Assembly: GCA_938003685.1 (NCBI GenBank)
Contig: CALKXT010000093.1
Location: 1 to 35,645 of the forward strand
Origin: an uncultured Sulfitobacter sp.
GTDB lineage: Bacteria; Pseudomonadota; Alphaproteobacteria; Rhodobacterales; Rhodobacteraceae
DNA length: 35,645 nt
Direction: 5' to 3'
The notes under the pieces were generated by a model. That model was not told where the DNA came from and ran no database searches. It saw nothing but the letters and a program-made list of their open reading frames with translations. The position numbers and the translations under genes are program-made. This document shows, piece by piece, positions 4,040 to 35,099 of this stretch. Every line of letters begins with the position of its first letter. The first letter of the stretch is position 1.

Positions 4040-4113
4040 GGGGACATGCGTTGTGAGCCAACCAAGATCAGGTGTATTGTTGTCCCATGTCAAAAAAGCC
4101 AAAGGGGGAAACA

Positions 4114-7720: not shown

Positions 7721-8554
7721 TTATCGTCCACGCGCCCAAGTGCTGTTATTGTGCAGAATTGGCAATTTCACCGCCAATCGCACCGCTGCGAATACCGCAA
7801 ACCCCATTGGATCACGCAAGACGCGGTGCCAAAGCGGTGATGCCTGCCTTGGTGGATCGGCATTGATCAACAGCTTTGGGTAAAGCGCCTCTATCTCGGT
7901 CACACCCACGTTTTGACGGCGGCGCACCCGTACAAGGGCTGCAAAGCCCTCAATCATCGGCCAATCATACGTCGCGGGTACAGAAATCCGTTCATCAGGG
8001 CGAAAGTTCAACCGCGCAAAGGTATCGTCCGAAATGATGTCAGGCCAGTTCCCCCACCGTGCGCGCCCTGCCCGGTTCATTGCAAACACACCAAAACCCG
8101 GCACGCCATCTTTGATGAAGGGGATTGTCTGCCAAAAGCGCGTGTAATGGCGTGTGACAGCACTGTCTTTTACCGTCACGTTCGGGCGGCCGCTGGCATA
8201 GCGTGGGCCTTTGACATCCAAAACCTCAACCAATTGCGCAATCAGGGGCTGGGACACGTCAACATCCGCATCCACATAGATCAAGACATCCCCCAACGCC
8301 GCCGCTTCGGCCTCATTAAGCGCGTTTAACTTGCCACCCTTGGCGATGTTTAGCACCTTCAGCGACCAGCCCTTGAGCAATACCTGCTCTGCGTATCGTT
8401 CAGCAATTTGGACCGTATCATCGCTACATCCATTCGCCGCCACAACAATTTGAACGGGCGCATCAACCGGGTCAGAGGCCAACAGAGCGTCTAAACAGGT
8501 GGGCAAATACGCCGCCTCATTGTGGGCGGGGATCAGAATACTGACAGAAGACAT
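7721..8554 (-). CDS. GT2-family glycosyltransferase
   Basis: This GT-A-fold, probably inverting glycosyltransferase is the last gene of the minus-strand NRPS/PKS-polysaccharide run. The 277 residues begin with SVSILIPAHNEAAYLPTCL, followed by VVAANGCSDDT and the metal/donor site VDADVDV, as in GT2 enzymes. No membrane segment is evident. The ATG at 8554 overlaps the stop of the upstream gene by one base (TGATG), implying translational coupling; a GTG one codon earlier is the alternative. The acceptor is unknown. Its position behind two SGNH-type genes suggests work on the same glycan. Confidence 0.88.
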   Translation of the reverse strand: MSSVSILIPAHNEAAYLPTCLDALLASDPVDAPVQIVVAANGCSDDTVQIAERYAEQVLLKGWSLKVLNIAKGGKLNALNEAEAAALGDVLIYVDADVDVSQPLIAQLVEVLDVKGPRYASGRPNVTVKDSAVTRHYTRFWQTIPFIKDGVPGFGVFAMNRAGRARWGNWPDIISDDTFARLNFRPDERISVPATYDWPMIEGFAALVRVRRRQNVGVTEIEALYPKLLINADPPRQASPLWHRVLRDPMGFAVFAAVRLAVKLPILHNNSTWARGR

Positions 8555-11082
8555 CACTGAAACGCCACCAAAGCATCCCAGCGCGGATTTTCATCATCCA
8601 GATGACGTAGCGCGCCCCATGATCCCCATTTGGTGGGGGCATAGACATCAGAATAGGCATTGAACAATTGACCGCCCACAGCAACCCAACCGTCCAGCAA
8701 GGTCGCATAAAGCGCACCCATCTCAGGTGAATAGTTAAATTGAAGCATAAATGCGGTGAGTTCGGTGTTATCTACCTGCGCGCCCAACCCAACCACATGA
8801 CTACCACCCTCATACATGATCAAGTCCAACCCTTTGGAGCGCGCCACAGCCGCGTGATAGGGCCACACCCGCCCCAGCAGATCAGCAAGCGTATCAGTTG
8901 CATCACCGCTCACGCCGCCATCATGCAATTCTCGGCCCGCCAGCATCACCGCATGATCAAAACGATGTTCAGCAATATAGGCATTCGCCGCCTCGCCGCT
9001 TAATCCTTCCTTTTCAGCGGCCGCTTTGGCCATGGTCAGGCTTTCAGCCAGCCACGCTTTCATCATCTCTTGGCGGTTATCGGCCCCCAGAATTCCACCA
9101 AAATACCCCGAAATCGCATAGGCATCAAAGGCTGTGGCAGGTGCTGATGCGCCCTCTGCTTGGGCAAGGGGTGCGTCCAACACCTCAGCCTCTAACCCCA
9201 ACCATCCGGTTTGCGACGAAATGACATTGATAAGACGCGCATCCGACTGATCGGCGTAAACCTCGGACCATATCCGCGCCACTTCCGCCGCGCGCAGCCC
9301 GTAATATTGCATCCATTTGTCTTTTTGCCCCCAACGCGCAAGCGATTGCACGTCCGCCCAAACCGCCTGTTCAAACTGCCAATTCCAAACCTCGTTTGAA
9401 AACTCAACATAGGCGACCAATTTTGGATCCAGATTGTCGCGTACATAGGTCGCAAATTGGCGCACAAATTCATCATCCGCCAAATGTGGAACATTGAACC
9501 ACGCATCGGTTTCCAACTCGTTTGCCAAATCCACCATCACCTCAATCGGGACACCTTCAGCAAAGCTTACATCATTCGGTTTTGGGCGGGCATCCCAGCT
9601 AGATAGCGCAGAGTTATTGATTTCCATCCAGTCCATAAACCGCAGCGCCCGGAACTGGCCAATACGGCTGGTCCACATCGGGTTGAATATCGCGCCCTGA
9701 TCAAAACGTGCCGCATTTTCTTGTTTCACCACAGAAATATTGCGCGGTGGATTGGTGGTGTTGATCCTTTGCACACGAATGTCGACACTACCAGGACCGG
9801 GGCTGTAATCGAATGTCACCTCGCCCTTACCGTAGCGTACATTCTGCGCGCGCCCAGCGACCTCAATGACCCCCGCCCCATCAAAGGCCACGCGGTAGCG
9901 CCCTTTTAAAGACACTGCCGCTTCGGGCATGTCGGTGAGGACCAATGTGCCAATGCTGCTCAAGGCGCGGGGCATTTTTAGCGGCCATCCATCACCGTCC
10001 AAATAGCCCCCAGCAACCAATTCATCATATTCCATACCGCCCCAAGCACCGGGTTTGTGACCCAGCCAAGGACGCGCTGTTTTCATCACGTCAAGAAACG
10101 GTTGTTGTGTGCTCCAATCTACGACCGACGCCAAACCAATGGCAGTGGCATTTGAGCCTGGCACAGCGCCCTCTGGTGTTTGAATGACTTGCGTTCTTTC
10201 TGTGGTCGGCGGGCCGGTTGGTGCAGCGGGTGCTGTCACGGCGCGCGCAGCCGTTGTAGCGGGCGGCACCTTGGCGACGGATGCGCCTTGATACTCTAGC
10301 ACTGCCTCCCAAGCGACGCGTTGCAATACGCGTGCTAAATCGGGCGTTGGCGCATCAAATGCCTTGCCCCAACGGTCATTGAACGTATTGGGCAACCCCA
10401 AGGGGTCTTGCCCGGTCAGGGTCGCGTATTGCACCATCGCCACAAAGTAATGGCCCAAATCGTTCAAGTGAATATCATCTGAGAACAGGGCGTTAATACG
10501 ACTCACCCCCGGCACACGTTCAGCCGCGATTTCATCATAAAGCCGCGCCATGGCTTGGCCCGCTGGGATTAGTGAAATGCTGGCAGTTTCTGAGCGATTG
10601 CCCGCTGCAACCGATGCCACAATACCTTCCCAGACTGGCAAATCCTGATCCAGTCGGGTGCGCCATGGGATGTTCGCGTTTTCATCATTCTCAATCGCGA
10701 CACCGGTACCGCTGTTCAGGCTGTGCCAGGTTTCTTGAATGTAGGCCTGCGTATTCGCGTTGGCTGCGACACCTAGGCCAAAGAAAGCTTGGGCATAAAC
10801 CTCAGTGTCTGACCAGGTGGTATGGTTTGCGAGGGGAATTGCCTCGGTCAGGATTAAGTGACTGGTGCCGCCTTCTGGTAACACTGAACGCGCATCAACG
10901 CCCTCTGCCTTGTCAGAGGCTTCCCAATTATAGCGCAACGGTGCGCCGTTGATGATTTGCGAACGGACCGTGCCCTCGCCCTGCCCGGCGCGCAATGCCT
11001 CTTGCAACATGTCAGGACCATCGGTGCCAAACAGGCTGTGCCCGACCATCAAGATTGACAGAACAGTGCCCAGACCACTCAT
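8554..11082 (-). CDS. Fusion of SGNH-like hydrolase and clan GH-A-like glycosidase domain
   Basis: The 842-residue protein has two parts. Residues 1-265 are SGNH/GDSL-like: a nucleophile Ser16 in VGHSL, the shared blocks ETWH (117-120) and IPAG (172-175), and the dyad D202-x-x-H205 in DDIHLND. A Pro/Ala/Thr-rich linker covers about 271-310. Residues 315-842 look like a (beta/alpha)8 glycosidase preceded by a beta-rich part: FSNEVWN places N563-E564 as an acid/base pair and IMYEGG (E758) as a nucleophile, as in cellulase-like clan GH-A enzymes. Roseobacter relatives are often labelled cellulose-binding protein. No signal peptide is visible, which is odd for a polysaccharide-cleaving enzyme. 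The gene overlaps its upstream neighbour by ATGA. Likely roles are removing or adding O-acyl groups and trimming the glycan; substrates are unknown. Confidence 0.75.
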   Translation of the reverse strand: MSGLGTVLSILMVGHSLFGTDGPDMLQEALRAGQGEGTVRSQIINGAPLRYNWEASDKAEGVDARSVLPEGGTSHLILTEAIPLANHTTWSDTEVYAQAFFGLGVAANANTQAYIQETWHSLNSGTGVAIENDENANIPWRTRLDQDLPVWEGIVASVAAGNRSETASISLIPAGQAMARLYDEIAAERVPGVSRINALFSDDIHLNDLGHYFVAMVQYATLTGQDPLGLPNTFNDRWGKAFDAPTPDLARVLQRVAWEAVLEYQGASVAKVPPATTAARAVTAPAAPTGPPTTERTQVIQTPEGAVPGSNATAIGLASVVDWSTQQPFLDVMKTARPWLGHKPGAWGGMEYDELVAGGYLDGDGWPLKMPRALSSIGTLVLTDMPEAAVSLKGRYRVAFDGAGVIEVAGRAQNVRYGKGEVTFDYSPGPGSVDIRVQRINTTNPPRNISVVKQENAARFDQGAIFNPMWTSRIGQFRALRFMDWMEINNSALSSWDARPKPNDVSFAEGVPIEVMVDLANELETDAWFNVPHLADDEFVRQFATYVRDNLDPKLVAYVEFSNEVWNWQFEQAVWADVQSLARWGQKDKWMQYYGLRAAEVARIWSEVYADQSDARLINVISSQTGWLGLEAEVLDAPLAQAEGASAPATAFDAYAISGYFGGILGADNRQEMMKAWLAESLTMAKAAAEKEGLSGEAANAYIAEHRFDHAVMLAGRELHDGGVSGDATDTLADLLGRVWPYHAAVARSKGLDLIMYEGGSHVVGLGAQVDNTELTAFMLQFNYSPEMGALYATLLDGWVAVGGQLFNAYSDVYAPTKWGSWGALRHLDDENPRWDALVAFQ

Positions 11083-12032
11083 GTCGCAACCCCAGTTTCG
11101 CGGTGGCGCCGCACCACGTCCCAGACAACACGCTGCATCAATTCTGCTGCGTGGGCACTCGGCGCATTGGCCGCCGAACCATCCGCGCGCAATAATTCAT
11201 ACGCTAGCCCCAAGGGCGGACGGTGATAAAGCACCGCATAATGCGTCAAAGCCACAAGGTAGGCTCCCAAATCGTTAAAATGTATCGTGTCTGGTGTGCC
11301 GTCATCGCGCTTGGCAAACAGATCGGCCTGCGTGGCAATCCCGTCCACCCCCCCTGCGGCTTGCACTGCACGCACAAAGGTGGCCATGACCTGACCTGCA
11401 GGGATCAGATGAATCGGAGCCTTTGATGCGGCCAACGCCGGGTATGTCACCCGACCCTGCCAATATCTGCGCAAGTCCTCATCAATGCGGGTCAACCAAC
11501 CCGCATCATCATCCGTGTGGTGCCACGTTTCATAGAGGTAAATGCGCGTATTTGAATTTGCATCCCATGCCAACTTGGCCCACCGTGAGAGGTAATCAGC
11601 CGAACCGTGATACCGGACAGCATCCGCAATTTCGACCATCTCGGTCAGTACAACTGCATCATAGCGACCTGACGCGATGGCCTGTTTCGCGTCGCGATAT
11701 TTGTCGTGGTCATTTTCCTGTACAAACCCATTGATTGGCACATCAGGTTCCCAATGATCACGCAGTGACGTACCCCAGCCCAATTGACTGTGATACCCAT
11801 GGCCGTCACCTGCCAATTGCGCGAGCATCGCAGGCATGTCACGCCCAACCAGAGAATGACCCAAATGAAACACATTCAATGACTTAACCGGCGCGGTAAG
11901 GGGCTGTGCGTATAGCGCCTCAGCGTCCTTTTCACCCCGTTTGCGCCGCATGCGCCACACCACGGCACCTGCCCCGCCAAGGGTAAGGGCAAGAAGTCCG
12001 GCCACAGCGGAACGACGCGTAAACACTGGCAT
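11079..12032 (-). CDS. Membrane-anchored SGNH-type hydrolase/acyltransferase-like protein
   Basis: The 317-residue protein is a paralogue of the N-terminal half of the next gene. It shares FHLGHSL (nucleophile Ser60), YETWH, IPAGQ and the D248-x-x-H251 dyad in DTIHFNDLG. Its N-terminus reads TRRSAVAGLLALTLGGAGA, a Tat-like twin arginine and hydrophobic stretch (about 9-26), followed by the basic sequence RMRRKRGEK. This suggests an anchor in the inner membrane rather than cleavage. I chose the ATG at 12032 because AAAGGAG sits about 6 nt upstream; a start at 12110 would add 26 residues that look untranslated. SGNH enzymes cut or transfer acyl esters, so acetylation or deacetylation of the exported polysaccharide is a reasonable guess. 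Confidence 0.75.
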   Translation of the reverse strand: MPVFTRRSAVAGLLALTLGGAGAVVWRMRRKRGEKDAEALYAQPLTAPVKSLNVFHLGHSLVGRDMPAMLAQLAGDGHGYHSQLGWGTSLRDHWEPDVPINGFVQENDHDKYRDAKQAIASGRYDAVVLTEMVEIADAVRYHGSADYLSRWAKLAWDANSNTRIYLYETWHHTDDDAGWLTRIDEDLRRYWQGRVTYPALAASKAPIHLIPAGQVMATFVRAVQAAGGVDGIATQADLFAKRDDGTPDTIHFNDLGAYLVALTHYAVLYHRPPLGLAYELLRADGSAANAPSAHAAELMQRVVWDVVRRHRETGVAT

Positions 12033-12109
12033 GTCAGGCTCCTTTAGGGGCAATTTGCCCAATCGGCGCTTCCAGCACAAGGAGGTGTGGGCACGATAGC
12101 GCCGACACA

Positions 12110-12124
12110 CCGCCTGAGAGGCGG
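12110..12124 (-). other. GC-rich hairpin directly after the NRPS stop codon
   Basis: CCGCCT (12110-12115) and AGGCGG (12119-12124) form a perfect 6-bp stem with a 3-nt loop, one base past the TAA of the NRPS. No T-run follows on the minus strand, so it is not a textbook intrinsic terminator. It could slow polymerase, protect the mRNA 3' end or reduce expression of the SGNH genes relative to the NRPS. Confidence 0.4.
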
Positions 12125-12125
12125 A

Positions 12126-15100
12126 TTATGCCCCTGCTTTGTTACGACCCGCCCGCATCATACGGCGTTTCGACATGGTTTCGGTTTTGGCGGTTTCTGG
12201 ATTTTGATCACCGGGCGCAGTGTCTGTGTCTCTACCCTTATCCAGATGCGCCACGAGGGTTTCCAACTTAGGAAAGCGGAAGATGTCTGTGATTGACAGA
12301 TGATCAACGCCTAAGGCCGCTTTGATATCGCGGTGCGCCTGAACTGCCAGCAGCGAATGTCCCCCTAGGTCAAAGAAATTATCTTCGCCTCGAATATCCG
12401 TAACGCCAAGGATGCTTGACCAAACCAGTGCAATTGCTGCCTGTGTTTGGCTAACAGGTGTTATCGGTGCTGCTGCACGGGGTGCGGTGCGCGTGCCCGG
12501 TGCAGGCAGCGCTGTACGGTCGATCTTTTTGTTTGGCGTCAGAGGCAGTGTATCGAGCTTTACAATGGCACTGGGCACCATGATGTCGGGCAAGACCCGC
12601 GATAGGTTTTGACGCACGGCATCTAAATCAATGACTGTATTGGTCGTGACATACCCCACCAATTGCGCACCACCAGGTGCATCGCGCAAAATGACAACTG
12701 CTTGGGTCACGCCCGCGATTTCAGTCATGCGTGCTTCGATTTCACCTAGTTCGATGCGGTGACCGCGCAGCTTAACTTGGGCATCAACGCGCCCTTTGAA
12801 ATGCAGGACGCCACTGGCGTCCCACCCCGCCACATCACCTGTCCGATACAGCTTTCCGGTGCCAAAGGGGTTATCGACAAATCGTTCTGCGGTCATTGCG
12901 TTTCGCTGCCAGTACCCTTGCGTAACCCCATCACCACCAATCCACAATTCACCAATAGTACCAATTGGTTGCGATACCATCTTATCATCTAAGATGAAGA
13001 TAGATGTATTCGCTATTGGCGTCCCAATCTGGGCAGTATCATATCCCTTTTTAGCCAGTACATGCGTGGTGGACCAAATTGTTGTTTCCGTTGGGCCATA
13101 CATATTTTGGATCTGTGCGGACGTGCAAGTGTGCAGCGCCGTCACCAATGATCCGGGCAAAGCTTCACCGCCCACCATGAGATGTTTGATACGTGTTAAC
13201 ACGCCACTGGCATCTTCATTAGTCACCAACATCTGTGCCATGGATGGGGTGCATTGCAGGTGGCTGACATCATGGCGCACGATCTGCGCGGCCAGTGAAA
13301 AGTCATCCTCAGCCAACACAGCACCCTGATTGGCCTGTTCAAGAACACGCGCCAGCGGCTTTAACCCCGCCATCACCTTGTCCGTTGAGATACCGTAATC
13401 AATCAGGCAGGCGACCTCGTCCACGCCAATACGTTTGAGTTGCTCTGTGCGTGCCAGCCCATCGGCCACGGTGCCAAACATCCCACTGTCATTAAAATAG
13501 CGTTGAAAGGCGAACTCAAGGATCGCATCCATCTCTTCGTCCGACAGCCCGTCCAAATTAACCTCAAACGGGTTTGTCACCCCGGCTGGCTTTTTGAATG
13601 CCGGGAACGCCCAAGCATATTGTTTGATTAACCCTGCGGCAGAGCGCAGATAATCTTTCATCGGTTCGCGCGCAATTTCTTCGGACAGTTCGCGCGTTTC
13701 GGCCAGATAAGTGTGCAGCATCACGGTGACTTTGTGGTCTGCCGGGTCATGGCCCGCACTGGACAACGCATCGTGATAAATCTTGATCTTATCCGCGACC
13801 TCATCCACCGATTGGCCCAAAAGGTGCGTCAACACGTTTGCCCCGATTTCACCCGCTTCTTTCCAGGTTTGGGGATTGCCTGCGGTGGTCACCCAAATCG
13901 GCAGAACCTTGGATACCGGACGCGGCTGCGTCACAACTGCGAACGGTGTGCCATCCTTGGTCGGGAACTCAACCGCATCGCCACGCCAAAGCGCGCGCAA
14001 TTGCTCAATCGCGGCATACATAGCGGGCTTATTTTCAGGTGGCGTATTTTCGGGGCGCAGCACGAAATCATCAGGCTGCCACCCACTTGCAATCGCCAGA
14101 CCCACCCGGCCATTGGTCAGATTATCGATGACCGCCCATTCCTCAGCAATCCGCGCTGGATGATGAAGCGGTGCCACACACGACCCCGCGCGCACGTCTA
14201 GGTTCTGTGTGACTGCCGCGACTGCGGCCCCTGTCACAGACGGGTTCGGATACGGCCCGCCAAAGGCATGGAAATGCCTTTCTGGTGTCCAGACCGCATT
14301 GAACCCATGCACATCGGCAAATTTTGCCCCTTCAAGCAGCAATTCGTATTTCTTGGGACCAACACCATCATCATTGCCCCAATAGAACAGGTTGAAATCA
14401 ATGGTGCGGGTCGAAGTTGCGATAGGACCATTCGATATTGCCGTACGCGCAGCGTCCCCTGCAAGCACCACTTTAAAGCCACGCCCAAGCGTCCAAAAAA
14501 GTTCCAATACTGAAATATCAAAGGACAGGCTTGTGACGGCCAACCACACCGCACCTACCTTATGGTCAATGCGGTCATCCATCCCGGCAAAGAAATTCGC
14601 AACATTGCTATGGCGGACCATCACACCCTTTGGCGTTCCAGTGGATCCAGAGGTATAGATAAGATACGCCAGATCATCGGCGGTGGCCGCAGCAGGCGGA
14701 TTGTCAGTCTGCGCCGTTGTGATGCGTGGATCAGTGTCCAGAACCAACACCTGCGCGCCGTGGTTTGGCAGTGCATCCACCAACGCACTTTGCGTCACAA
14801 TGATCGGCGCGGCGCTGTCGCTAATATAATGTGCAATCCGATCTGCTGGATAGGCCGGGTCTAGCGGCACATAGGCCCCCCCGGCCTTTAAGATGCCCAG
14901 CGCCCCGATCATTAAATCAACGCCGCGTGCGGTGTTCAGCGCGATCGGCATACCCGGGGTCGCACCCATATCACACAGCACATGCGCCAACTGGTTGGCG
15001 CGTGCGTTTAAGGTCACATAGCTAAGTGTCTCATCTTCAAAAACCAGTGCATCTGCGTCCGGCGTCAGGGCAACCTGTGCCTCGAATGCGGCATGGATCG

Positions 15101-16676: not shown

Positions 16677-16678
16677 GG

Positions 16679-17683
16679 TCATTCCTCCGTTACGGGGCGC
16701 TCTGTCATTGGTTTTACATTGGCACGGCCAAGGCCCAACCCATGTCGCAAAAGATCACGTTGAAAATATGGCGCTTCTTGGGGTTTTCGGCCTGAAATTA
16801 CGCACCGCAATTGGTGGATGACGCCCCCTGAAAGCCGCGCTACCCATGCAAGTACTGCATAAACTCGACCATGGTTTTTCAAAAAATACCGCTGGCGTGA
16901 CGCAAACCAATAGGACGGCATACGCTGCCATTCCTTCATGCCAGTCGAAACAGACCCAATGTGTACAACCCGGCTTTCTGGCACATACCAACACTGCCAG
17001 CCTGAACGCGCGGCACGTTTGCACAGATCAGTTTCCTCAAAATACAAAAAGAACTCTTCGTCAAACAGGCCGATCTCATCCAACATTTGCGCGCGCATCA
17101 ATACGGACGCTCCTGCGACCCAATCAACTTGGGTGGTTTGCGTTGGCAGTGGTGGTGCAACGATAGCCTTGCGAAATATCTTGGAGAACACACCAGTGCG
17201 CGCCGCCCCTTCGAATTCACCCGCGATAGAGGGGAACCGAAATGCAGTGCAATGGGGTGCATCATCATCACCGCGTACATGACTGCCCGCGATCCCAGCC
17301 TTTGGGTGGTCTTGCAAAAAAGCAGTCAATGTCGCGATGCAGCCCGGATCGACAAAAGCATCCGAATTCACGATGTAATAGAAGTCGGGCTTTGACCCAT
17401 CCGACATGCCCGCGCACAGAGCCAAATTATTCCCCGCTCCAAAACCGCCATTAACCTCAGACAGAATCAAGCGCACGTGATTGCCCTTGCCCCAACCCCG
17501 GTCCGCCACGGCCTGTTGCAAGATCACCGCTGATCCATCACCCGATGCGTTATCCACGATGATCAGCTCAGCCCCGACCTTTGGCATATCCGCCAATGCG
17601 GCTGCCGCCGCCTTTAACGTCATTTCTGCGGTTCGGTAATTGAGGACAATCACCAACAGTTTTGGCGTGCCGATCCTGCTCAT
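16679..17683 (-). CDS. GT2 glycosyltransferase, rhamnosyltransferase-like (WbbL type)
   Basis: The 334-residue GT-A-fold enzyme shows VIVLNYRTAEMTL, IIVDNASGDGS, the loop NGGFGAGNN, the donor/metal region VNSDAFVDPG and the acceptor-side block FDEEFFLYFEETDLCKRA typical of rhamnosyltransferase-like GT2 proteins. No membrane segment is evident. The start ATG overlaps the PKS stop (ATGA), and its stop lies 2 bp before the preferred NRPS start, so it is locked between the two assembly-line genes. That position suggests it glycosylates the NRPS/PKS product or builds the sugar that receives it. The alternative is a routine polysaccharide glycosyltransferase that happens to sit there. Confidence 0.9.
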   Translation of the reverse strand: MSRIGTPKLLVIVLNYRTAEMTLKAAAAALADMPKVGAELIIVDNASGDGSAVILQQAVADRGWGKGNHVRLILSEVNGGFGAGNNLALCAGMSDGSKPDFYYIVNSDAFVDPGCIATLTAFLQDHPKAGIAGSHVRGDDDAPHCTAFRFPSIAGEFEGAARTGVFSKIFRKAIVAPPLPTQTTQVDWVAGASVLMRAQMLDEIGLFDEEFFLYFEETDLCKRAARSGWQCWYVPESRVVHIGSVSTGMKEWQRMPSYWFASRQRYFLKNHGRVYAVLAWVARLSGGVIHQLRCVISGRKPQEAPYFQRDLLRHGLGLGRANVKPMTERPVTEE

Positions 17684-20600
17684 TCGGCAGCCGTAGCTTG
17701 ACGGTCGTCGTCCTCGTCTTGATCCAGTGCCGCCGCAATCACCTCGCGCAATTCCTGCGCCAATACGGTGACATTGGGCGTCAATACCATGCTGTCATGA
17801 TCACCCGGCACCTCAATCACCTCAAGGTGTGGTGCATAACGACGCCAATCATTGTCTTCAAACACGTATTCACGCGCGGCACTGACCCAATTGTCCTGCG
17901 ACACCTGCCAATGCTGATCTAACGGTGGCCGGAACAGAGTGATCGCACCATACCAATCAGGTGTTTCATAAGAGCCAACGGCGGTCAGGAATGCCTGTTC
18001 GATCTTGTGATTATTAAACTCGCTGGTCCCAGCATTACCCTGCCCGGCCTGACGATCCCGAGTTTCCCATGCCCAACGGCTTTTTGCCCAATCAACCAAA
18101 TACCTCGGCCCTTTGGCACGCACCTCTTGCAGCTTAATCAGTGCTTTGTCTTTGCGGTTCAATGAAGGGCGCACAGGCAATGGCGTGTCAAGCAACGCCA
18201 ACACCGCGACTTCTTGACCGGCTGTGCGCAACTGTTGCGCCATTTCGTAGGCCGTGACACCGCCACCGGAATAGCCACCCAGCAAATAAGGCCCCTGCGG
18301 TTGCAACGACCTGATTTCGGCCAGATAGTCCTGTGCTGCCTCATGTACCGTCACATGCGGCGCGCTATCCCCAATCAAGCCACGCGCCTGCACGCCGTAA
18401 ACCGGTCGCTCTGCACTTAGCCCCATTCCCAGATGTCGCAGGTTCAGCACATTGCCAAACATCCCCGCGATGACAAACATCGGCGTGGCTTGCTTTTGCT
18501 CTGACTGGTTCAGCGGCACCAAATAGTCGAATTTACGTAATGGTACTGCCTCAACCGCATCATCCGCAAGCGCGCCAAGCGCACCTGTTTCTGCCGCGAT
18601 CAAGGACGCACATTTGGCAATTGTTGGTGCTTCAAACAGCACCGAAATCGGGAACTCGACCTTGAATTCACGTTTCACATTGGCAAACAGCCGTACTGCG
18701 ATCAGCGAATGGCCGCCAAGGTCAAAGAAACTATCCTCGACCCCAACCGGGCTAACACCCAGCAGGTTTTGCCACATCTCAGCAAGGCGTTCTTCGATAC
18801 CATTACGCGGCGCGACAAAACTACCATCCAGGTCAGGACGATCAAAACTTTGCCCCGGCGTGGACGCTTCGACTGCAGGCTGATCGGCCTGCGCGATCAA
18901 CTGATCCAGTGGAATGGAAGACACGATCACCTGAGAGCGGCCCAAAACCAAAGCACGGCGAAATGCCTCTGGCCCCTCTGATGCACGAATACCAAGACTG
19001 ACTTGATAGGCCAGACGTTCTTCTGCCGGGGTCAGCGTTTTCTGATCTGTTTCATCCGTATCAAAACGAACCTCGCGCGCATCTAGTGGCGCAGTCGTAG
19101 CAAAGCCACCTTCAAGCCGTTTCATAGCAAAGTCACTGACCTCGACTAACACAGCGCCAGCGGTGTCACAGATCGTCACATCAAACCGCGCAAACCCGTC
19201 AGTTGTTTGCCCATCCGACATGCGCACCCAAGAGATGATTTGTGCGGGCAAAGCCCCATAGATCCGCAGGCTACCATAAGATACCGGCACCCACAGGTTC
19301 TGCGCACCATATCCCGGCACCAGTTCAATTGCCCAGCCTGTTGCCAAATCCATCAGACCCGCGTGCAGCAGGTGCCCCGCGTCCAAATCGCCCTGCACAT
19401 CATGTGGTAAGGCCAATGTCGCCAGCCCTTCGGTTGCTGCCATTCTGGTCTCGCGCAGCACATGCCAGCGCGGTCCAAAGTTCAGATGCGCCTCTTGAGG
19501 GGACTGTAGGCGGTTCGCATCGCTGGCGCATTTCACCGCTGTGCAACGCGCTGAAATATCTTTCAAATCAAGCGCCTCTGGCGTCTTTCCGGTTCGTTTG
19601 GCCAATGTCGCTTGAGCATGTAGTTGCCATCCAGCTTTTCCATTCACCACACAATCGCTACGCAATTCAGCAGTAAATCCATCCCCATCAGATCGCAGAT
19701 TAATTTGCATCTGGCGCTGCGTTTCATTGGCGACAGGCATCGCGCGCAAGAAATACAGATCGCGAATTTCAAAACCATCCGACATGCCTTGGGCTTGCGC
19801 AGCTTCGGCAAGTAATTCGATGTAGCCAGTTCCCGGCATCACCGCTTGGCCGTCTTTTGTGCGATGCTGATCCAAAAGCCAATCAGCGCTGGACAAGCGC
19901 GCGCTCAAAACCGGATCGCCCGCAGCATCCGCGCCAACGCTATCCAGCAAAACCGCATCAAGGGCGCGCGCAGGCAAGGTATGGCTGGCCACACCGCCTG
20001 TGGCCTCAGCGGCCATCCCAACATCCGCCCACACACCCCAATTAACAGCAATCACACGCGTAGACCCGCCCCTACGTGACAGAGCAACCGCATTCAGCCA
20101 CGCGTTAGCGGCGACATAATCCACCTGCCCAGCAGATCGCGTCGCCGTACTTGTAGAGGAAAACAGAACCAACAATTCAAGCGCCCCGTCAGGCAACACT
20201 TGATCCAACACCCGCAAGCCCTGAACCTTGGGCGATAACACACTGTCAATCTGCGCATCGGTCTTGGCCAACAGCGGGCCATCATCCAATTTGCCTGCAG
20301 CATGGATTACCCCGGTCATCGCACCGTGACGTGTTTGTAAATCATCCACAACTCGGCGCATTTGGGCTAGGTTCGCCACATCGCCTGTCGCAATCTCAAC
20401 CTGCCCCCCCTTGGCCTGTGCAAGCATTTGCAAACGCTTTAGCGCGCCAATGCGCCGGGCCGTCCTATCGGAGGTTACGTTTCGGGACAGGTAATTTTCC
20501 CAAGTTGCTTGCGCAGGTAGACCGTCACGCACCAGCAAAACCACAGTGGCCTTATGGCGCGACAAGATATCCGCAGCCAGGGTCAGACCAATACCGCCAA

Positions 20601-23600
20601 ATCCACCCGTTATCAGATAAGTCCCGCCCTCGCGGAAAGTATCCTCGTCAGATTGCGGCAATAGCGCGGGCTTATACCCCATCTCAAACCGTTTCGGACC
20701 GCGATAGGCCGCAATGGTATTTGCGGGGCTGGCCATCAAATCTTCGATCAAGCGATCGGTCAGATCTTCGCTGGGCGTTTCCTGTGGGGCTGCCCCAAAC
20801 CAACTGCGTTTGGCGGTTGCCGGTTTAGCGCCCACATCGAGATCGATCTGCGCACAGGTTACACCGGGTAGTTCGCGGGCGAAAACACCCACAGGGCCGC
20901 TAACCATCGCTTTTTCTGGATGGCTTAGCGCTTCATCACGCACCTGCGCAGCCCCGGCGGTGAACACGCTGAGGTGCAAAGGCTTGTCCACCCCCGCCTC
21001 GGTCAAGGATTGCGACAACCATGTCAGGCTCCAAAAACCCTGTTCGATATTACGGTCAAAGCTGCTGCTGCCCGGGCGGGGTGATTGGGCGTCGTCAGTC
21101 AGCCAAAAATGGCCAACACGCTCAGGCATCTGCCCGTTGCCATTCAACACCCCAATAAGTTGATCATATCCCGCACGCCCCTGTTCAGCGGCTATCGTGA
21201 ATTCCTGCTCGGAGGTCTGCGCAAAGGTATCCCCAGCGCGCACCGACACAACGCGATGGCCGGCATCGCTTAGGCGCGCGATCACCGGATCAGCGACACC
21301 GTTGTCATCCGCAAAAATTAACCATGTGAGCGGCGTTGCAGCCAGATCGTTGATGACATCAGCATCCGCTGACGCAAATTGTGGTCGCCACGCAGGCACA
21401 GCCCCCCAGTCCGCGATGTCATCTTGGCGTACCAATGACGGCAAGGCCGAAGCAACAGAGGCCTTGCCCGGCTCAATGAAATAACGGCTGCGCTGGAAAG
21501 CATAGGTTGGCAGGACCACACGATTACGTTTTGTCTCACCCCAGATTTGGGTCCAATCGGCCTCGTATCCACAGGCCCAAAGCCGACCAATGACGCCGAT
21601 GAAATAAGCATCATCTGCAATATCTTGATCAGGATGGCGCAAGGTAGACATGACTTGACCTGCTGCCACGCCGTCACTCATTTGCGCCAAGGCGGACAGA
21701 GCTTTGCCCGGACCAACCTCAAGGTATACACGTTTGCGCGCTGCGCTGAGGGTCGTCATACAATCGGCAAAGTTCACCGTATTGCGCAATTGGCCAACCC
21801 AATAATCAGGGTCTGTCGCTTGTTCAGCAGTGATCAGATCACCTGTACGATTCGACATGAACGGCATTTGCGGTGATTGCAGATCGAGCTTTTGCAGGAA
21901 GGCACGATAACGGCCGAGGATCGGTTCCAACATCCGCGAATGTGCGGCAATGTCGATGGCGATGCGTTGATATTCGATATCTTGTGCAGACAGTTGTTCC
22001 TGCATCGCGTCAAGTTCGGCTTGTGGACCGGACACTGCAATCAATTCAGGTGCGTTTACGGATGCGATGTCTAACCCATCACCCAAGAGCGATGTAATTG
22101 TTTCTAACCTGGCAGAAATGCTCAGCATTCCGCCCGCCGGAACTTCATCGAACAATTGACCCCGCAGCAGCACCAAATCAATGAGCCCTTCAAAGCTCAT
22201 CACCCCCGCCAGACAGGCAGCGACGTTTTCACCCATCGAATGGCCAACCATGGCTGAGGGTTTAACCCCCCAAGACAGCCAAAGCTGGGCAAGCGCATAT
22301 TCGACAATGGCGATCAGCGGCAGCTGTACAGAGGGTTTTTTGAGCCGCTCTGTTGCGTTGGCCATCTGATCGACTTCGGGCAACCACAGCGCGCGAATGT
22401 CGTAATCCAACTGCGGTGCGAGGTGATCCAGACCCCGGTCCATCCATTCCGCAAAGACAGGTTCTGTCTCATACAAATCGCGCGCCATGCCAGCGTATTG
22501 CGCGCCGCCACCGGGAAACATGAACACCACTTCGGGGTTCTCACTTAGCAAATCATGCGTAAACACGCGGCGGGTGTCAGAGGCTTCCAAAAGGTCTGCG
22601 GCCTCTACATGGGTTTCGGCCACAACAACGCGACGCTTTTCAAATCCGCGGCGCCCGCTTTTCAGGGTGAAGGCGATGTCCGCCAAGGGCTGTTCAGGGT
22701 GCGTGCGCAGATGCGCGACCAGCGCGGCGGTGTTCGCCTCTAAAGCAGCCTTGCTGCGCCCAGAAACACAAATCGTGTGGAACGGCCAATCACTTTCCTC
22801 TGATGCGGCACGTTTGGGTGCTTCTTCCAATACGGTATGTGCGTTTGTACCACCAACACCCAGCGCGTTCACACCTGCACGGCGTGGCGTCGCCCCCGCT
22901 GGCCAGTCACGCAACTGGTCATTTACGGCAAAGGGCGACCCCTCAAAACCAATTGCCGGGTTTGGGGCCTCGTATCCCAATGACGGCGGCATTTGTTTGT
23001 GATGCAAGGCAAGCGTGGTTTTCACCAGCCCAGCGACACCCGCCGCCGTGTCCAAATGGCCGATATTGGTTTTGACCGATCCAATGCGGCAGAAATCCTT
23101 GGCATCTGTGGTTTGGCGATAGGCTTCGGTTAGAGCGGCAACTTCGATCGGATCACCCAGATAGGTGCCCGTTCCATGGCATTCGACATAGCCAATGCTT
23201 TGCGCAGCAACCCCTGCCGCATCCAAAGCGCTGGCAATAGCTGCGGTTTGACCATCAACCGAAGGCGCAAGATAACCCGCCTTGGCCGCACCATCATTAT
23301 TGATCGCAGAGCCCTTAATCACCGCCCAAATGTGATCGCCATCCGCAATTGCATCCGACAGGCGGCGCAACGCAACAGCCCCTGCCCCTGATCCAAACAC
23401 CGTGCCTTGGGCCCGGTGATCAAAGGCGTGACAATGGCCATCAGGCGACAGGATTTCATTTTCCTTGAACTGATAGCCGCGCCCGTGCGGCAGTTCGATG
23501 GTGACACCACCCGCCAAGGCCATATCAACCTCACCTGCGCGCAGCGCCTGACAGGCATAGTGGATCGCAACCAGCGACGTAGAGCAAGCCGTTTGCAGGT

Positions 23601-24168
23601 TAATTGACGGACCTTTGAGATCAAACACATGACTGACACGGGTCGACAGGAAATCTTTGTCGTTACCTGTGTGGCGCAACAGGAACATACCCACATCATC
23701 GACCAGATCGGGGTTCGAGCAGATGTTGAAATAGAAATAGCTGCCCATCCCGCAACCAGCATAAACACCAATTGCGCCGGGAATGGTTTCGGGCGGATGG
23801 CCCGCTTGCTCCATCGCGCCCCAAGCGACCTCAAGGAACTTGCGATGCTGAGGGTCTAGGATCGCAGCATCTTTTGGGGAAAAGCCAAAAAATTCGGCAT
23901 CAAACGTATCAAACCCGTCCATCACCGCAGCGGCGGCCACATAATTCTTGGCCGCAATGTTTTCCGGCGTTTCACCCGCCGCAAGTAATTCAGTTTCGCT
24001 TAACCGGCGGATAGATTCCACGCCGTCACGCAGGTTTGCCCAATAGGCATCTGTCCCTTGCGCGCCCGGCACGTCAACTGACATGCCAACAATAGCAATG
24101 TCTTCGCCAGAAAAAGAGCGGCTCTTTGCGGTAATCATCTTAACAAATTTATCCCATTGCCCGTCCAA
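17680..24168 (-). CDS. Type I polyketide synthase, KS-AT-KR-DH-ACP-TE
   Basis: This single-module PKS of 2162 residues carries its own release domain. KS: Cys195 in TACSTS, His331 in ECHGTGT and His371 in NIGH. AT: Ser644 in GHSMGE, with AAHS (His743) at the usual YASH/HAFH specificity site, so the extender is probably malonyl but not certain. KR (about 920-1390): TGGFGGIG, the LDD triplet (1294-1296) of B-type reductases, and Tyr1351/Asn1355. DH (about 1420-1690): His1435 with Pro1445, and Asp1607. ACP: Ser1821 in DLGGHSL. TE (about 1895-2145): Ser1967 in GYSGGG, Asp1994 and His2124. There is no enoylreductase, so the product should be alpha,beta-unsaturated. KR before DH is not the usual order. 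The start is uncertain: TTG at 24168 lacks a good ribosome-binding site; ATG at 24138 and CTG at 24174 are alternatives. Confidence 0.93.
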   Translation of the reverse strand: MDGQWDKFVKMITAKSRSFSGEDIAIVGMSVDVPGAQGTDAYWANLRDGVESIRRLSETELLAAGETPENIAAKNYVAAAAVMDGFDTFDAEFFGFSPKDAAILDPQHRKFLEVAWGAMEQAGHPPETIPGAIGVYAGCGMGSYFYFNICSNPDLVDDVGMFLLRHTGNDKDFLSTRVSHVFDLKGPSINLQTACSTSLVAIHYACQALRAGEVDMALAGGVTIELPHGRGYQFKENEILSPDGHCHAFDHRAQGTVFGSGAGAVALRRLSDAIADGDHIWAVIKGSAINNDGAAKAGYLAPSVDGQTAAIASALDAAGVAAQSIGYVECHGTGTYLGDPIEVAALTEAYRQTTDAKDFCRIGSVKTNIGHLDTAAGVAGLVKTTLALHHKQMPPSLGYEAPNPAIGFEGSPFAVNDQLRDWPAGATPRRAGVNALGVGGTNAHTVLEEAPKRAASEESDWPFHTICVSGRSKAALEANTAALVAHLRTHPEQPLADIAFTLKSGRRGFEKRRVVVAETHVEAADLLEASDTRRVFTHDLLSENPEVVFMFPGGGAQYAGMARDLYETEPVFAEWMDRGLDHLAPQLDYDIRALWLPEVDQMANATERLKKPSVQLPLIAIVEYALAQLWLSWGVKPSAMVGHSMGENVAACLAGVMSFEGLIDLVLLRGQLFDEVPAGGMLSISARLETITSLLGDGLDIASVNAPELIAVSGPQAELDAMQEQLSAQDIEYQRIAIDIAAHSRMLEPILGRYRAFLQKLDLQSPQMPFMSNRTGDLITAEQATDPDYWVGQLRNTVNFADCMTTLSAARKRVYLEVGPGKALSALAQMSDGVAAGQVMSTLRHPDQDIADDAYFIGVIGRLWACGYEADWTQIWGETKRNRVVLPTYAFQRSRYFIEPGKASVASALPSLVRQDDIADWGAVPAWRPQFASADADVINDLAATPLTWLIFADDNGVADPVIARLSDAGHRVVSVRAGDTFAQTSEQEFTIAAEQGRAGYDQLIGVLNGNGQMPERVGHFWLTDDAQSPRPGSSSFDRNIEQGFWSLTWLSQSLTEAGVDKPLHLSVFTAGAAQVRDEALSHPEKAMVSGPVGVFARELPGVTCAQIDLDVGAKPATAKRSWFGAAPQETPSEDLTDRLIEDLMASPANTIAAYRGPKRFEMGYKPALLPQSDEDTFREGGTYLITGGFGGIGLTLAADILSRHKATVVLLVRDGLPAQATWENYLSRNVTSDRTARRIGALKRLQMLAQAKGGQVEIATGDVANLAQMRRVVDDLQTRHGAMTGVIHAAGKLDDGPLLAKTDAQIDSVLSPKVQGLRVLDQVLPDGALELLVLFSSTSTATRSAGQVDYVAANAWLNAVALSRRGGSTRVIAVNWGVWADVGMAAEATGGVASHTLPARALDAVLLDSVGADAAGDPVLSARLSSADWLLDQHRTKDGQAVMPGTGYIELLAEAAQAQGMSDGFEIRDLYFLRAMPVANETQRQMQINLRSDGDGFTAELRSDCVVNGKAGWQLHAQATLAKRTGKTPEALDLKDISARCTAVKCASDANRLQSPQEAHLNFGPRWHVLRETRMAATEGLATLALPHDVQGDLDAGHLLHAGLMDLATGWAIELVPGYGAQNLWVPVSYGSLRIYGALPAQIISWVRMSDGQTTDGFARFDVTICDTAGAVLVEVSDFAMKRLEGGFATTAPLDAREVRFDTDETDQKTLTPAEERLAYQVSLGIRASEGPEAFRRALVLGRSQVIVSSIPLDQLIAQADQPAVEASTPGQSFDRPDLDGSFVAPRNGIEERLAEMWQNLLGVSPVGVEDSFFDLGGHSLIAVRLFANVKREFKVEFPISVLFEAPTIAKCASLIAAETGALGALADDAVEAVPLRKFDYLVPLNQSEQKQATPMFVIAGMFGNVLNLRHLGMGLSAERPVYGVQARGLIGDSAPHVTVHEAAQDYLAEIRSLQPQGPYLLGGYSGGGVTAYEMAQQLRTAGQEVAVLALLDTPLPVRPSLNRKDKALIKLQEVRAKGPRYLVDWAKSRWAWETRDRQAGQGNAGTSEFNNHKIEQAFLTAVGSYETPDWYGAITLFRPPLDQHWQVSQDNWVSAAREYVFEDNDWRRYAPHLEVIEVPGDHDSMVLTPNVTVLAQELREVIAAALDQDEDDDRQATAAE

Positions 24169-24215
24169 AGACAGGTATGAGCCCCCATGGTCAACATAAC
24201 CCTTTAGCAGTATTT

Positions 24216-24245
24216 TTTATAGGAAAAACTGGTAAAAACACCCAA
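24216..24245 (-). promoter_or_regulatory. Possible promoter for the PKS-NRPS run
   Basis: On the minus strand TTGGGT (24245-24240) and TATAAA (24221-24216) are separated by 18 bp, and the start would lie about 40 bp before the PKS coding region. It sits in the 239-bp AT-rich gap (24169-24407) between the polymerase gene and the PKS. The -10 is good and the -35 moderate; read-through from the polymerase gene is the alternative. Confidence 0.3.
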
Positions 24246-24328
24246 TTCCCTCACCACTTTCATCATTTTTCAACAGGTTTTCATAAAATTCCCCGTATCC
24301 GTGTGGGCCGAGTTGCCACAACAAACAC

Positions 24329-24344
24329 ATAGCCTTACGGCCAT
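24329..24344. terminator. Weak hairpin in the gap between polymerase gene and PKS
   Basis: ATAGCC (24329-24334) and GGCCAT (24339-24344) form a 6-bp stem with one wobble around TTAC; on the minus strand the loop is the stable tetraloop GTAA. On the plus strand it runs into five T (24344-24348). On the minus strand, where transcription is expected, the following bases are only moderately T-rich. It could partly separate the polymerase gene from the PKS operon. The evidence is thin. Confidence 0.22.
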
Positions 24345-24407
24345 TTTTGCCCCTAGCGAAACAATCCTGCCATATTCGCCGGGATTCGATACTATGTTAG
24401 TGGTGGG

Positions 24408-25868
24408 TTATAGAACCGTGCGTTTGCCCGGCCTCACCACTGCTTTGCCCAAAACAGCGCCGTTTCTAAACGGATGGCGCGGCACCCCATAGACATTCGG
24501 CAACAGCTTTTCTGCATGGCCCAGAATCGCACCCGCTGTCAGCCATGTGAACGGAGTCAGCGTGGCGTTTAGCAACATATCCATCATGGTCACACCCAGC
24601 ATCAGTGTAAGGGGCGCCACAAACGGTGAAAGCGCGGCGTCCCCCATCCGGCGAATATAAAGCCCCATCAGCAAAAGCGGCCACGCCAACAGACCAAATT
24701 CACAGATATACCCTAGCCAGCCAAAGGTACCAAAAACAATGATCCAGCGTCCATCCGGGATGGATAGGATCGCCCCGGTTTCGGCGTCACGCACCAGATT
24801 TCGACCCCATCCGCCCCAACCAAACAACGGCTTTTCAGCGGCACGCGCCAGCAATTGCTCTTCGTTGAAAAATCGGAAACCAAGAGATTGCGCTCTATCT
24901 GGGCTGATCGCCTCAGCTTGGGCCAAAATTGCATCAAGCGGGATCAAACCAAAGTTACGCAGCATCGGATAGACAATCGCCACGACAGCAAAGATCACCG
25001 CCAACCTGATCTGCCAGCGCGGGGGCGAAAATATCACCAAGGGTAGCAAAACAATCCCGTAGGCCAGCGAAGCAAAGCTTTTGCATAGGACCAACATCAC
25101 ACCTAGGTACGCAACAGACATCATCATTTTAACGCGCTCTGCATGGGCTACTTGTCGGGTCAAGGCAGCGGCGGACAGCAATGCAGTGCACATAAACAAC
25201 GCCAGCCACAAACCGTGAGGCAAGAACACAATCGGGCGATAGCCCCCTGCTCGTACGGTTTGTTCGAATGAATGTTGGAAAAATCCATAGACCCAGACAT
25301 TTATCTGCGGACTGAGGCGAATTTCGATGAGTGACGGGATCGAATAGATCAGCCCCCCAATCATCAGCGCCAACAAGATTTCGCGCAGACCGTCCTCGGA
25401 TGACAAAAACTGTCGCGCCAATAAGAAAGGCACCAACGTCAGCATCTGCGCAATCAGCACCGAGCCGATGTCACGAATGGACTGGCCCGGCAATTGATCA
25501 ACAAAAAACACAATCGGATCGGTATTGCCCAAAACCCTGAAAATAATCGGCTCACTATTGGTTAAGACCGACGGGATGGCTGACAAGACAAGCCCGACGA
25601 CCAACAATTGTGCAATGCGTGACTCAGGCCATAGCTGCACTTTTTGCTTCATCGCAAAGGCCAGAATGACCAACACGCTCAAGTTTGGGATAGACACTTT
25701 GTCCATGCCGGGCACCAGCGGCAGGTTAAACTCTGCGAGCGGAGGTAAAAACAGATAACCACCCAAGATTGACCAGATCAGCGCACGCTCCAATTTGAGC
25801 GTGCGAAACATCACCAAAGAGGCCACAGGCCAGATCACCAGCATCAAATATGCGATACCGTTTGGCAT
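24408..25868 (-). CDS. Wzy-like polysaccharide polymerase / O-antigen ligase family protein
   Basis: This 486-residue, strongly hydrophobic inner-membrane protein has about ten or more predicted membrane segments across its length. The region after residue 310 contains the block GFRFFNEEQLLARAAEKPLFGWGGWGRN; I note the arginine and the FGWG stretch, which resemble the periplasmic loop of O-antigen ligase/polymerase (Wzy_C-type) proteins. It would polymerise lipid-linked repeat units in the periplasm, consistent with the Wzz protein at 5181. The ATG at 25868 has AAGGA about 6 nt upstream. The gene diverges from the WecG-like gene. Polymerase and ligase cannot be separated by sequence alone, but no lipid A ligation genes are nearby, so polymerase is more likely. 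Confidence 0.82.
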   Translation of the reverse strand: MPNGIAYLMLVIWPVASLVMFRTLKLERALIWSILGGYLFLPPLAEFNLPLVPGMDKVSIPNLSVLVILAFAMKQKVQLWPESRIAQLLVVGLVLSAIPSVLTNSEPIIFRVLGNTDPIVFFVDQLPGQSIRDIGSVLIAQMLTLVPFLLARQFLSSEDGLREILLALMIGGLIYSIPSLIEIRLSPQINVWVYGFFQHSFEQTVRAGGYRPIVFLPHGLWLALFMCTALLSAAALTRQVAHAERVKMMMSVAYLGVMLVLCKSFASLAYGIVLLPLVIFSPPRWQIRLAVIFAVVAIVYPMLRNFGLIPLDAILAQAEAISPDRAQSLGFRFFNEEQLLARAAEKPLFGWGGWGRNLVRDAETGAILSIPDGRWIIVFGTFGWLGYICEFGLLAWPLLLMGLYIRRMGDAALSPFVAPLTLMLGVTMMDMLLNATLTPFTWLTAGAILGHAEKLLPNVYGVPRHPFRNGAVLGKAVVRPGKRTVL

Positions 25869-28867: not shown

Positions 28868-28916
28868 ACCTTGGGTGATACGACAGGGCGCTGCAGCGGT
28901 CCACTGCCCCCGTGCG

Positions 28917-31753: not shown

Positions 31754-31757
31754 ATTC

Positions 31758-35095: not shown

Positions 35096-35099
35096 GATT

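Follow-up and report, generated by a model that had tools for sequence, protein, structure and literature searches.

A hybrid NRPS-PKS assembly line conserved within Wzy-type exopolysaccharide loci of the Rhodobacteraceae

Organization of the locus

The window examined here is a 35,645-nucleotide stretch of DNA that forms the whole of contig C93 (CALKXT010000093.1) in the draft genome of an uncultured Sulfitobacter sp. (GCA_938003685.1; 3.4 Mb, 219 contigs, 84.6% complete). It contains a small two-protein assembly line, composed of a non-ribosomal peptide synthetase (NRPS) and a polyketide synthase (PKS), set among genes of polysaccharide synthesis. The central seven genes lie on the minus strand and are given below in order of transcription (FT, formyltransferase; A, adenylation; LLM, luciferase-like monooxygenase; PCP, peptidyl carrier protein; KS, ketosynthase; AT, acyltransferase; KR, ketoreductase; DH, dehydratase; ACP, acyl carrier protein; TE, thioesterase; GT, glycosyltransferase; aa, amino acids).

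24408..25868, minus: Wzy-like polymerase of the O-antigen ligase superfamily (PF04932 under cut-off; predicted model)
17680..24168, minus: PKS, KS-AT-KR-DH-ACP-TE (Pfam/NCBIfam)
16679..17683, minus: GT2b, a family-2 glycosyltransferase between NRPS and PKS (PF13641, 1.5e-12)
12126..16682, minus: NRPS, consisting of FT, a stretch resembling the end of a condensation domain (by eye), an A domain with a glycine-type code and the LLM between A4 and A5, and PCP (Pfam/NCBIfam)
11079..12110, minus: SGNH protein of 343 aa with a twin-arginine-like hydrophobic N-terminus by eye (homology to the N-terminus of the 842-aa protein)
8554..11082, minus: 842-aa protein with a predicted N-terminal SGNH domain and TIM-barrel (clan GH-A-like) glycosidase (predicted model matches)
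7721..8557, minus: GT2a, a family-2 glycosyltransferase (PF00535, 1.3e-20)

Neighbouring genes overlap by 4 bases at 4/6 junctions (PKS/GT2b, GT2b/NRPS, SGNH/842-aa protein and 842-aa protein/GT2a) and the gap between the NRPS and SGNH genes is 15 bases, in agreement with the first-pass annotation, which had described the assembly line as sharing one strand and overlapping or touching ends with glycosyltransferase and SGNH/glycosidase genes. The same annotation placed the assembly line behind a polymerase gene; the Wzy-like gene does lie in line upstream, but it does not overlap the PKS gene and is separated from it by 239 bases. Promoter and terminator scans of positions 24100-26200 gave no more than shuffled sequence gives. 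The run of minus-strand genes is flanked on both sides as follows.

3119..4039, plus: ExoY-like polyprenyl-phosphate sugar-phosphate transferase, which starts the repeat unit (PF02397, 3.6e-59)
4072..5058, plus: BY-kinase-like (tyrosine-autokinase-like) ATPase (TIGR03018, 6.3e-20, and TIGR01007, 3.7e-17, both under cut-off)
5181..6473, plus: Wzz-type chain-length protein (PF02706, 9e-7)
6524..7714, plus: GT4 glycosyltransferase (PF13692, 3.5e-36)
26074..26820, plus: WecG/TagA/CpsF glycosyltransferase (PF03808, 2.2e-42)
26883..27827, minus: GT2c, a family-2 glycosyltransferase (PF00535, 1.8e-16)
27824..29071, minus: GT2-like protein (PF13704), found in 14/101 of the NRPS loci compared below

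The flanks had been read as polysaccharide machinery, and the Bac_transf (ExoY-like) transferase, autokinase-like ATPase, Wzz, GT4, WecG and two further glycosyltransferases were all found. The true start of the last of these genes is probably inside the frame because the frame overlaps the next gene. A tRNA gene (2851-2922) between RecJ and the ExoY-like gene marks the edge of the polysaccharide locus and is a possible integration site.

Domain composition and catalytic residues of the NRPS and PKS

The domains of both synthases were assigned using Pfam and NCBIfam. The NRPS contained Formyl_trans_N, AMP-binding in two stretches, AMP-binding_C and PP-binding, and the two AMP-binding stretches were split by TIGR04020 (MupA/Atu3671 luciferase-like monooxygenase) at residues 763-1113, the insertion point lying between the FDxS and NxYGPTE motifs (A4-A5) of the A domain. 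The PKS contained KS, AT, KR, DH, PP-binding and Thioesterase domains (Pfam). The architectures read from the letters alone, FT-A[monooxygenase]-PCP and KS-AT-KR-DH-ACP-TE, were thereby borne out. No whole condensation domain was found by the domain scan in the NRPS module, which starts with the FT domain and is followed by the PKS. Among solved structures, the whole NRPS profile was best matched by the initiation module of LgrA (linear gramicidin, FT-A-PCP; PDB id. 6mfz, 1051.5 bits) and the LLM domain by PuwE (6ket, 2.1e-122, profile positions 763-1120).

Catalytic residues were examined in an alignment of 99 NRPS and 89 PKS sequences including those of the window, from which shortened rows and one distant homologue (genome G144) were dropped and in which the KR lysine and LLM active site were unscored. 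The FT Asn/His/Asp and the carrier serine of the NRPS were invariant, as were, in the PKS, the KS Cys/His/His, AT Ser and His, KR Ser/Tyr/Asn, DH His and Asp, TE Ser/Asp/His and carrier serine. The adenylation code, extracted by eye, was D-I-L-Q-x-G-M-I-W-K, with the second I present in 97/99 sequences. This is close to the glycine code DILQLGLIWK, and the A domain reads as a glycine domain by its code. Annotation of the pair differs in two named strains: the PKS of Hydrogenophaga pseudoflava is in two frames (L103 4630-11110), either a split gene or a sequence error, and in Paracoccus marcusii CP157 (L194 18439-23030) the formyltransferase and the LLM-bearing part of the NRPS are annotated as two overlapping genes.

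Conservation and co-occurrence within the family

The distribution of the NRPS was measured in 248 genomes representing 247 genera of the family, using a threshold of E up to 1e-100. It was present in 89/248 genomes (88/247 genera), and when 20 of these were extracted with 40 kb each, 19/20 had the NRPS and PKS among polysaccharide genes, the exception being G144. These 20 loci, the window and 80 loci from named organisms (the best 80 of at least 555) gave a comparison set of 101, including Sulfitobacter, Phaeobacter, Leisingera, Tritonibacter, Ruegeria, Roseovarius, Shimia, Paracoccus, Salipiger and Thalassovita. The 101 loci are not independent, as at least 3 strains are represented twice (L148/G005, L100/G110 and L106/G186), and many named loci end at the 10 kb flank, where absence is weak evidence. 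With these limits the counts were GT2b 100, PKS 100, phosphopantetheinyl transferase (PPTase) 94, Wzz 81, GT4 77, Wzx 73, GT2a 73, the 842-aa family 71, BY-kinase 68, GT2c 68, WecG 63, Wzy 61, SGNH 61 and ExoY 36. In 98/101 loci GT2b was encoded between the two synthases and on their strand (the exceptions being L113, G191 and G144), and a PPTase adjoined the NRPS on the same strand in 93/101.

A Wzy homologue was found in 88/248 genomes, 81 of them with the NRPS (phi 0.87), and a Wzx homologue in 85/248, again 81 with the NRPS (phi 0.89). A control gene nearby with no expected relation, encoding a haem-NO-binding (HNOB) protein (window 34508-35122), gave a weak association (phi 0.15, Fisher p 0.02), although its prevalence of 172/248 makes it commoner than the NRPS and therefore not a matched control. 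The first-pass annotation had asked for a search for conserved co-occurrence of the NRPS and PKS with the ExoY/Wzz/Wzy set, and such co-occurrence was strong across both the genomes and the 101 loci; homologous pairs lying always away from polysaccharide genes, named there as the contrary outcome, were not what was observed. The discordant genomes comprised 8 with the NRPS and no Wzy, 8 with the NRPS and no Wzx, 7 with Wzy and no NRPS and 4 with Wzx and no NRPS; at least 250 contigs make up the assembly in 5/8 of those with the NRPS and no Wzy match.

Among the 81 genomes with both genes, NRPS and Wzy were within 40 kb in 63, farther apart on one contig in 4 and on different contigs in 14, the last of which may reflect broken assembly (e.g., G245, with 1180 contigs); G132 carries the NRPS twice, and the one that shares a contig with Wzy was counted. 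Four of the Wzy regions not linked to the NRPS were inspected. A second locus in G243, G186 and G208 groups ExoY, Wzy, Wzx and GT2a with a glycosidase of the 842-aa family, and G072 gave only Wzy and GT4 matches.

SGNH protein and SGNH-glycosidase

The label "SGNH/glycosidase" given on first reading fits the results of structure prediction and homology searches. The predicted model of the 842-aa protein (mean pLDDT 81.8) matched TIM-barrel glycosidases of GH51, GH53 and GH10 (best E 1.3e-5), PslG (5bx9) at E 1.5e-3 and also GDSL lipase 4q9a (E 4.9e-4). Pfam gave no family in the window's own 842-aa protein, and Lipase_GDSL_2 was weakly matched by 4/21 members of its family (best E 0.0023). The 343-aa SGNH protein is homologous to the N-terminal domain of the 842-aa protein (hhalign probability 100, 36% identity), and its S86, D274 and H277 were invariant in 17 sequences. 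A sequence search of the PDB gave no match for the 842-aa family and one non-credible match (E 0.71) for the SGNH family.

SGNH matches were obtained in 44 genomes of 248, all NRPS-positive, and in 0/159 NRPS-negative genomes. Positions relative to the NRPS were compared in 43 genomes, 30 being within 40 kb, 3 farther and 10 on other contigs; G023 was left out since all that matched there, in part and at 40% identity, is the SGNH domain of the 842-aa family. The 7 genomes that have Wzy and lack the NRPS gave no SGNH match, and since all 44 matches are NRPS-positive the SGNH enzyme tracks the assembly line, not the polysaccharide.

Polymerase, flippase and export components

Features of a Wzx/Wzy pathway in the window are the polyprenyl-phosphate sugar transferase, the predicted Wzy and the Wzz co-regulator. 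The Wzy-like protein scored 22.0 bits against PF04932, where the cut-off is 31.7, and its predicted model (mean pLDDT 80.5) gave as best match the O-antigen ligase WaaL (7tpg; probability 1.00, E 1.9e-3, TM 0.43/0.49), with no structural match at E <= 0.001. The Wzy assignment is a putative one from the predicted fold, and a match to WaaL is consistent with a polymerase and with a ligase. The Wzx found in 73/101 loci belongs to family PF13440. A homologue of it with 45% identity lies on contig C1 of the window's own genome, and a PPTase is present in the locus of a genome of the same genus (G055). This Wzx homologue on C1 and another NRPS-like gene, different from that of the window and encoding 1313 aa, converge on each other (L168 8027-13368). 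The window was considered as a complete system and rejected as such, being without the PPTase and Wzx that its relatives carry. No Wza-type family was found among the window proteins scanned, the search for Wza not extending to the rest of the genome; a Wza-like protein was seen by eye in G191, and Wza is annotated in Aminobacter and Shinella loci.

Loci beyond the family

Among 337 genomes searched at the level of the class (E up to 1e-150), a thin sampling, there was one homologue outside the family, in genome G528, with 43% identity. Its NRPS-PKS pair is neighboured on one side by epimerase, aminotransferase, UDP-glucose dehydrogenase, GT4 and O-antigen ligase genes, and about 20 kb off on the other side by ExoY-, WecG- and Wza-like matches. 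Among plasmid records, 28 gave matches and 12 were opened; 8 records cover at least 80% of the query, all from Hyphomicrobiales, and 5 of these were opened. Polysaccharide genes lay near the match in 9/12 opened records, the other three being Aliiroseovarius (two distant GT2 genes only), Streptomyces and Nostoc, each with an LLM-bearing NRPS at 55-63% query coverage.

The Hyphomicrobiales loci (Aminobacter, two Shinella, Rhizobium grahamii and Neorhizobium) encode full-length homologues with 46-49% (NRPS) and 45-49% (PKS) identity to those of the window. In all five (5/5) the pair is accompanied by a PPTase and Wzx, and Wza, WecG, GPT or an O-antigen ligase is found there as well, varying from strain to strain. 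The PKS gene has the opposite orientation in 5/5, and in 3/5 a GT2b homologue lies elsewhere in the locus, that of Shinella zoogloeoides being 42% identical to the window's GT2b. The same adenylation code letters are found in these five homologues and in G528, and the catalytic residues are kept in the Hyphomicrobiales. Three Hydrogenophaga-labelled loci have the order PKS-GT2b-NRPS-PPTase with WecG-like and ExoY-like or SGNH neighbours.

The anatomy given in the first pass was confirmed, and the arrangement exceeds chance and recurs across genera; it is conserved, and more general than could be seen from one sequence. A chance neighbourhood was rejected on the co-occurrence and the reordered Hyphomicrobiales loci. 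The gene sets might also merely co-travel in plastic surface-polysaccharide islands without a common product, in keeping with the placement of the locus on plasmid-typed records in several strains, its presence in Hydrogenophaga-labelled genomes and the tRNA gene bordering it in the window. The linkage, however, survives 45-49% identity and gene reordering across orders, the co-occurrence persists in the 18 genomes in which NRPS and Wzy are either farther than 40 kb from each other or on separate contigs, and the SGNH enzyme is confined to NRPS-positive genomes. Such co-travel is judged very improbable.

Polysaccharide loci without the assembly line

Four genera with Wzx and Wzy and no NRPS were opened. 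In G137, G174 and G092 a GT2 protein groups with GT2b, which was not the case for G080, and within the stretches read none of the four gave a match to NRPS, PKS, PPTase or SGNH. The tree contained the three GT2 families and six rows from NRPS-less loci and had long branches, so that the grouping falls short of proof of orthology. The occurrence of GT2b-like proteins in NRPS-less loci points to GT2b as a glycosyltransferase of the repeat unit and to the assembly line as something added to a polysaccharide pathway. The sugar pathway stands alone, whereas the assembly line rarely occurs without it.

These loci bear on a second explanation, in which the NRPS-PKS makes a separate small molecule that is glycosylated by GT2b and exported, sharing regulation with the polysaccharide (for example through a signal of surface life) and forming no part of the polymer. 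The intact TE triad, as for release of a free acid, and the almost constant position of GT2b between both synthases are consistent with this, as are an ABC-transporter-like open reading frame in 7 loci (identified by eye, at whatever position relative to the locus) and a TolC-family gene adjoining the Aminobacter PKS. Published papers also class such hybrids as orphan metabolite clusters, and one genome, described below, keeps the pair without Wzy and Wzx matches. Against it, the NRPS coincides with Wzy and Wzx even beyond 40 kb, Wzx is the sole exporter that recurs in most loci, GT2b-like proteins occur in polysaccharide loci that have no NRPS, and GT2b does not lie between the synthases in Hyphomicrobiales. 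A separate glycosylated product is considered unlikely.

Other genes of the window

Beyond the polysaccharide genes, positions 28917-33388 encode an FAD-dependent oxidoreductase, an aldehyde dehydrogenase, a DHDPS-family protein and a GntR regulator, which have the look of a catabolic operon beside the locus. At 33477-35122 a GGDEF protein adjoins the HNOB protein, possibly forming an NO-responsive diguanylate cyclase pair.

Proposed function

The locus is best read as directing a Wzx/Wzy-type secreted polysaccharide that bears an acyl group from the dedicated two-protein NRPS-PKS, a reading to which we assign a probability of roughly 0.62. The coupling of the NRPS-PKS to a Wzy-type polysaccharide is well supported, and the hybrid polymer itself is a strong hypothesis; we infer that the acyl unit, which the first-pass annotation had left as either attached or separately exported, is bound to the polymer and is not a molecule apart from it. 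The unit would be short and glycine-derived, and probably N-formylated.

The chemistry can only be proposed, as can the acceptor, how many rounds the PKS performs and what the SGNH proteins do. The PPTase would arm both carriers, the A domain would load glycine onto the PCP and the FT domain would N-formylate it. The inserted monooxygenase could oxidise either the glycine alpha carbon or, after extension, the carbon beside the thioester; the insertion point and glycine code match modules of myxothiazol and melithiazol synthesis, in which the alpha carbon is reported to be oxidised. The KS would accept the unit and the AT add malonate, once in the simplest reading, and KR and DH would turn the product into a short chain, either 2-enoyl or hydroxyacyl. 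After a single extension this would be a formamido-enoyl or hydroxy acid of four carbons, and iteration is also possible. The TE may release the acyl unit or transfer it to a hydroxyl or amine of a repeat-unit sugar, near the sugar added by GT2b. ExoY, WecG and the glycosyltransferases would build the lipid-linked repeat, which Wzx would flip and Wzy polymerise under Wzz. The SGNH protein could move or remove the acyl ester, and the SGNH-glycosidase trim or cut the polymer. The twin-arginine-like N-terminus would direct the SGNH protein out of the cytoplasm, and its substrate there would be an ester on the polymer.

Several observations weigh against this reading. To date no product, acceptor or sugar-dedicated acyltransferase is known, and an OafA-like acyltransferase was seen by eye in 9/101 loci only. 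Wzx and PPTase are absent from the window, though relatives have a PPTase adjoining the NRPS and often Wzx, and the nearest PPTase homologue in the same genome (contig C19) has 36% identity. The 842-aa protein has no signal peptide by eye. Genome G217, a good assembly, keeps NRPS, PKS and SGNH (L177-L178) with no Wzy or Wzx match genome-wide and no GT2b or other polysaccharide query in about 78 kb, and it offers a test case for another acceptor. In G144 the distant homologue is part of a large, different NRPS-PKS cluster with no polysaccharide matches in 76 kb. The eight genomes with the NRPS and no Wzy match, and the eight with no Wzx match, point the same way. The association tests ignore phylogeny, and their P values are therefore not probabilities of independent events.

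Relation to known systems

The FT domain before A and PCP is shared with LgrA, which differs from the window NRPS in having no inserted monooxygenase and another substrate, and in making a peptide antibiotic without polysaccharide genes. Preparation of an acyl group for a cell-surface polymer by adenylation and carrier proteins is known from DltA-DltC in teichoic acid D-alanylation, where, unlike in the window, a single amino acid is used with a membrane O-acyltransferase and no PKS. Rhizobial RkpA is a fatty-acid-synthase/PKS-like protein in a capsule gene region; it differs in having no NRPS, no formyl-glycine start and another architecture. A further alternative, comparable to the role of RkpA, is that the product of the assembly line is an acyl primer on which the polysaccharide is synthesised, or a membrane anchor that retains it. 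A KS-AT-KR-DH-ACP-TE protein without an enoylreductase could act iteratively, and the pair is also found in Hyphomicrobiales. However, a formyl-glycine start and a monooxygenase within the A domain would be odd for an anchor, and since an ExoY-like polyprenyl-phosphate transferase is present, with Wzx/Wzy accompanying it, the usual lipid carrier is available. On this evidence, which includes no search for lipid-chain enzymes, a primer or anchor is regarded as distinctly unlikely.

The closest known systems also include the MtaG and MelG modules of myxothiazol and melithiazol synthesis. In these, as in the window NRPS, a flavin monooxygenase interrupts a glycine-type A domain between A4 and A5. 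They differ in that an upstream chain is accepted and released as the amide, the glyoxylyl thioester being hydrolysed, while the window has an initiating FT module feeding a PKS in a polysaccharide locus. The accessible text of PMC10204066 describes this placement of the monooxygenase in glycine modules, with oxidation at the glycine alpha carbon in myxothiazol and melithiazol, and hydroxylation beside the thioester by such domains in PKS modules; hydroxylations of the latter kind are proposed for TIGR04020 enzymes in that of PMC8739492. In the available part of PMC4219810 the PuwE monooxygenase of puwainaphycin lies between PKS and NRPS modules, with a 2-hydroxy acyl chain proposed, in contrast to the placement inside the glycine A domain of the window.

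The hybrid cluster is already in print as an orphan metabolite locus, and nowhere in the accessible parts of these papers is it tied to polysaccharide. Hybrid NRPS-like/T1PKS clusters with unknown product are described in 18/37 species (PMC10584327, in part), not all of them necessarily loci of the window type; in Roseibaca domitiana an NRPS of 4,527 nt and a PKS of 6,333 nt, about 1 kb apart, fit the sizes and order of the window locus. A cluster on pCP157_02 of Paracoccus marcusii CP157 is called a homoserine lactone/NRPS/PKS hybrid in the available part of PMC8273931, and the annotated record contains a PKS, GT2, formyltransferase, LLM-NRPS, WecG, flippase, EpsE and sugar transferase. In Phaeobacter inhibens the PKS Inhi_1972 and NRPS Inhi_1974 have one gene between them by numbering, the likeness being one of gene numbers only (PMC4062626, in part). 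The words "polysaccharide" and "exopolysaccharide" have a count of 0 in the accessible text of PMC10584327 and PMC8273931, and exopolysaccharide is mentioned for other genes only in that of PMC4062626. No published link of this NRPS-PKS hybrid to a polysaccharide was recognised in the accessible open-licence literature.

Significance

The wider proposition is that of a hybrid-polymer class of exopolysaccharide, in which each repeat would carry a unit from a dedicated, family-wide FT-A[monooxygenase]-PCP/PKS line. The line would have a PPTase of its own and, in roughly half of the organisms that carry it, a dedicated SGNH enzyme handling the acyl group outside the cytoplasm. Such polymers would be widespread at the surface of marine Rhodobacteraceae and some rhizobia, the genes having so far been classed under orphan secondary metabolism; we regard the chances of this as even. 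The named carriers include Sulfitobacter, Phaeobacter, Ruegeria and Roseovarius, which colonise algae and marine surfaces. If the reading is true, a hybrid that genome mining treats as an orphan antibiotic-type cluster is part of a surface polysaccharide in 88 of the 247 genera sampled from the family. There would then be one product to look for, and screens for free metabolites could be expected to miss it. It would also raise the question of which acyl group is displayed at the surface and what role this plays in attachment, phage contact or host contact.

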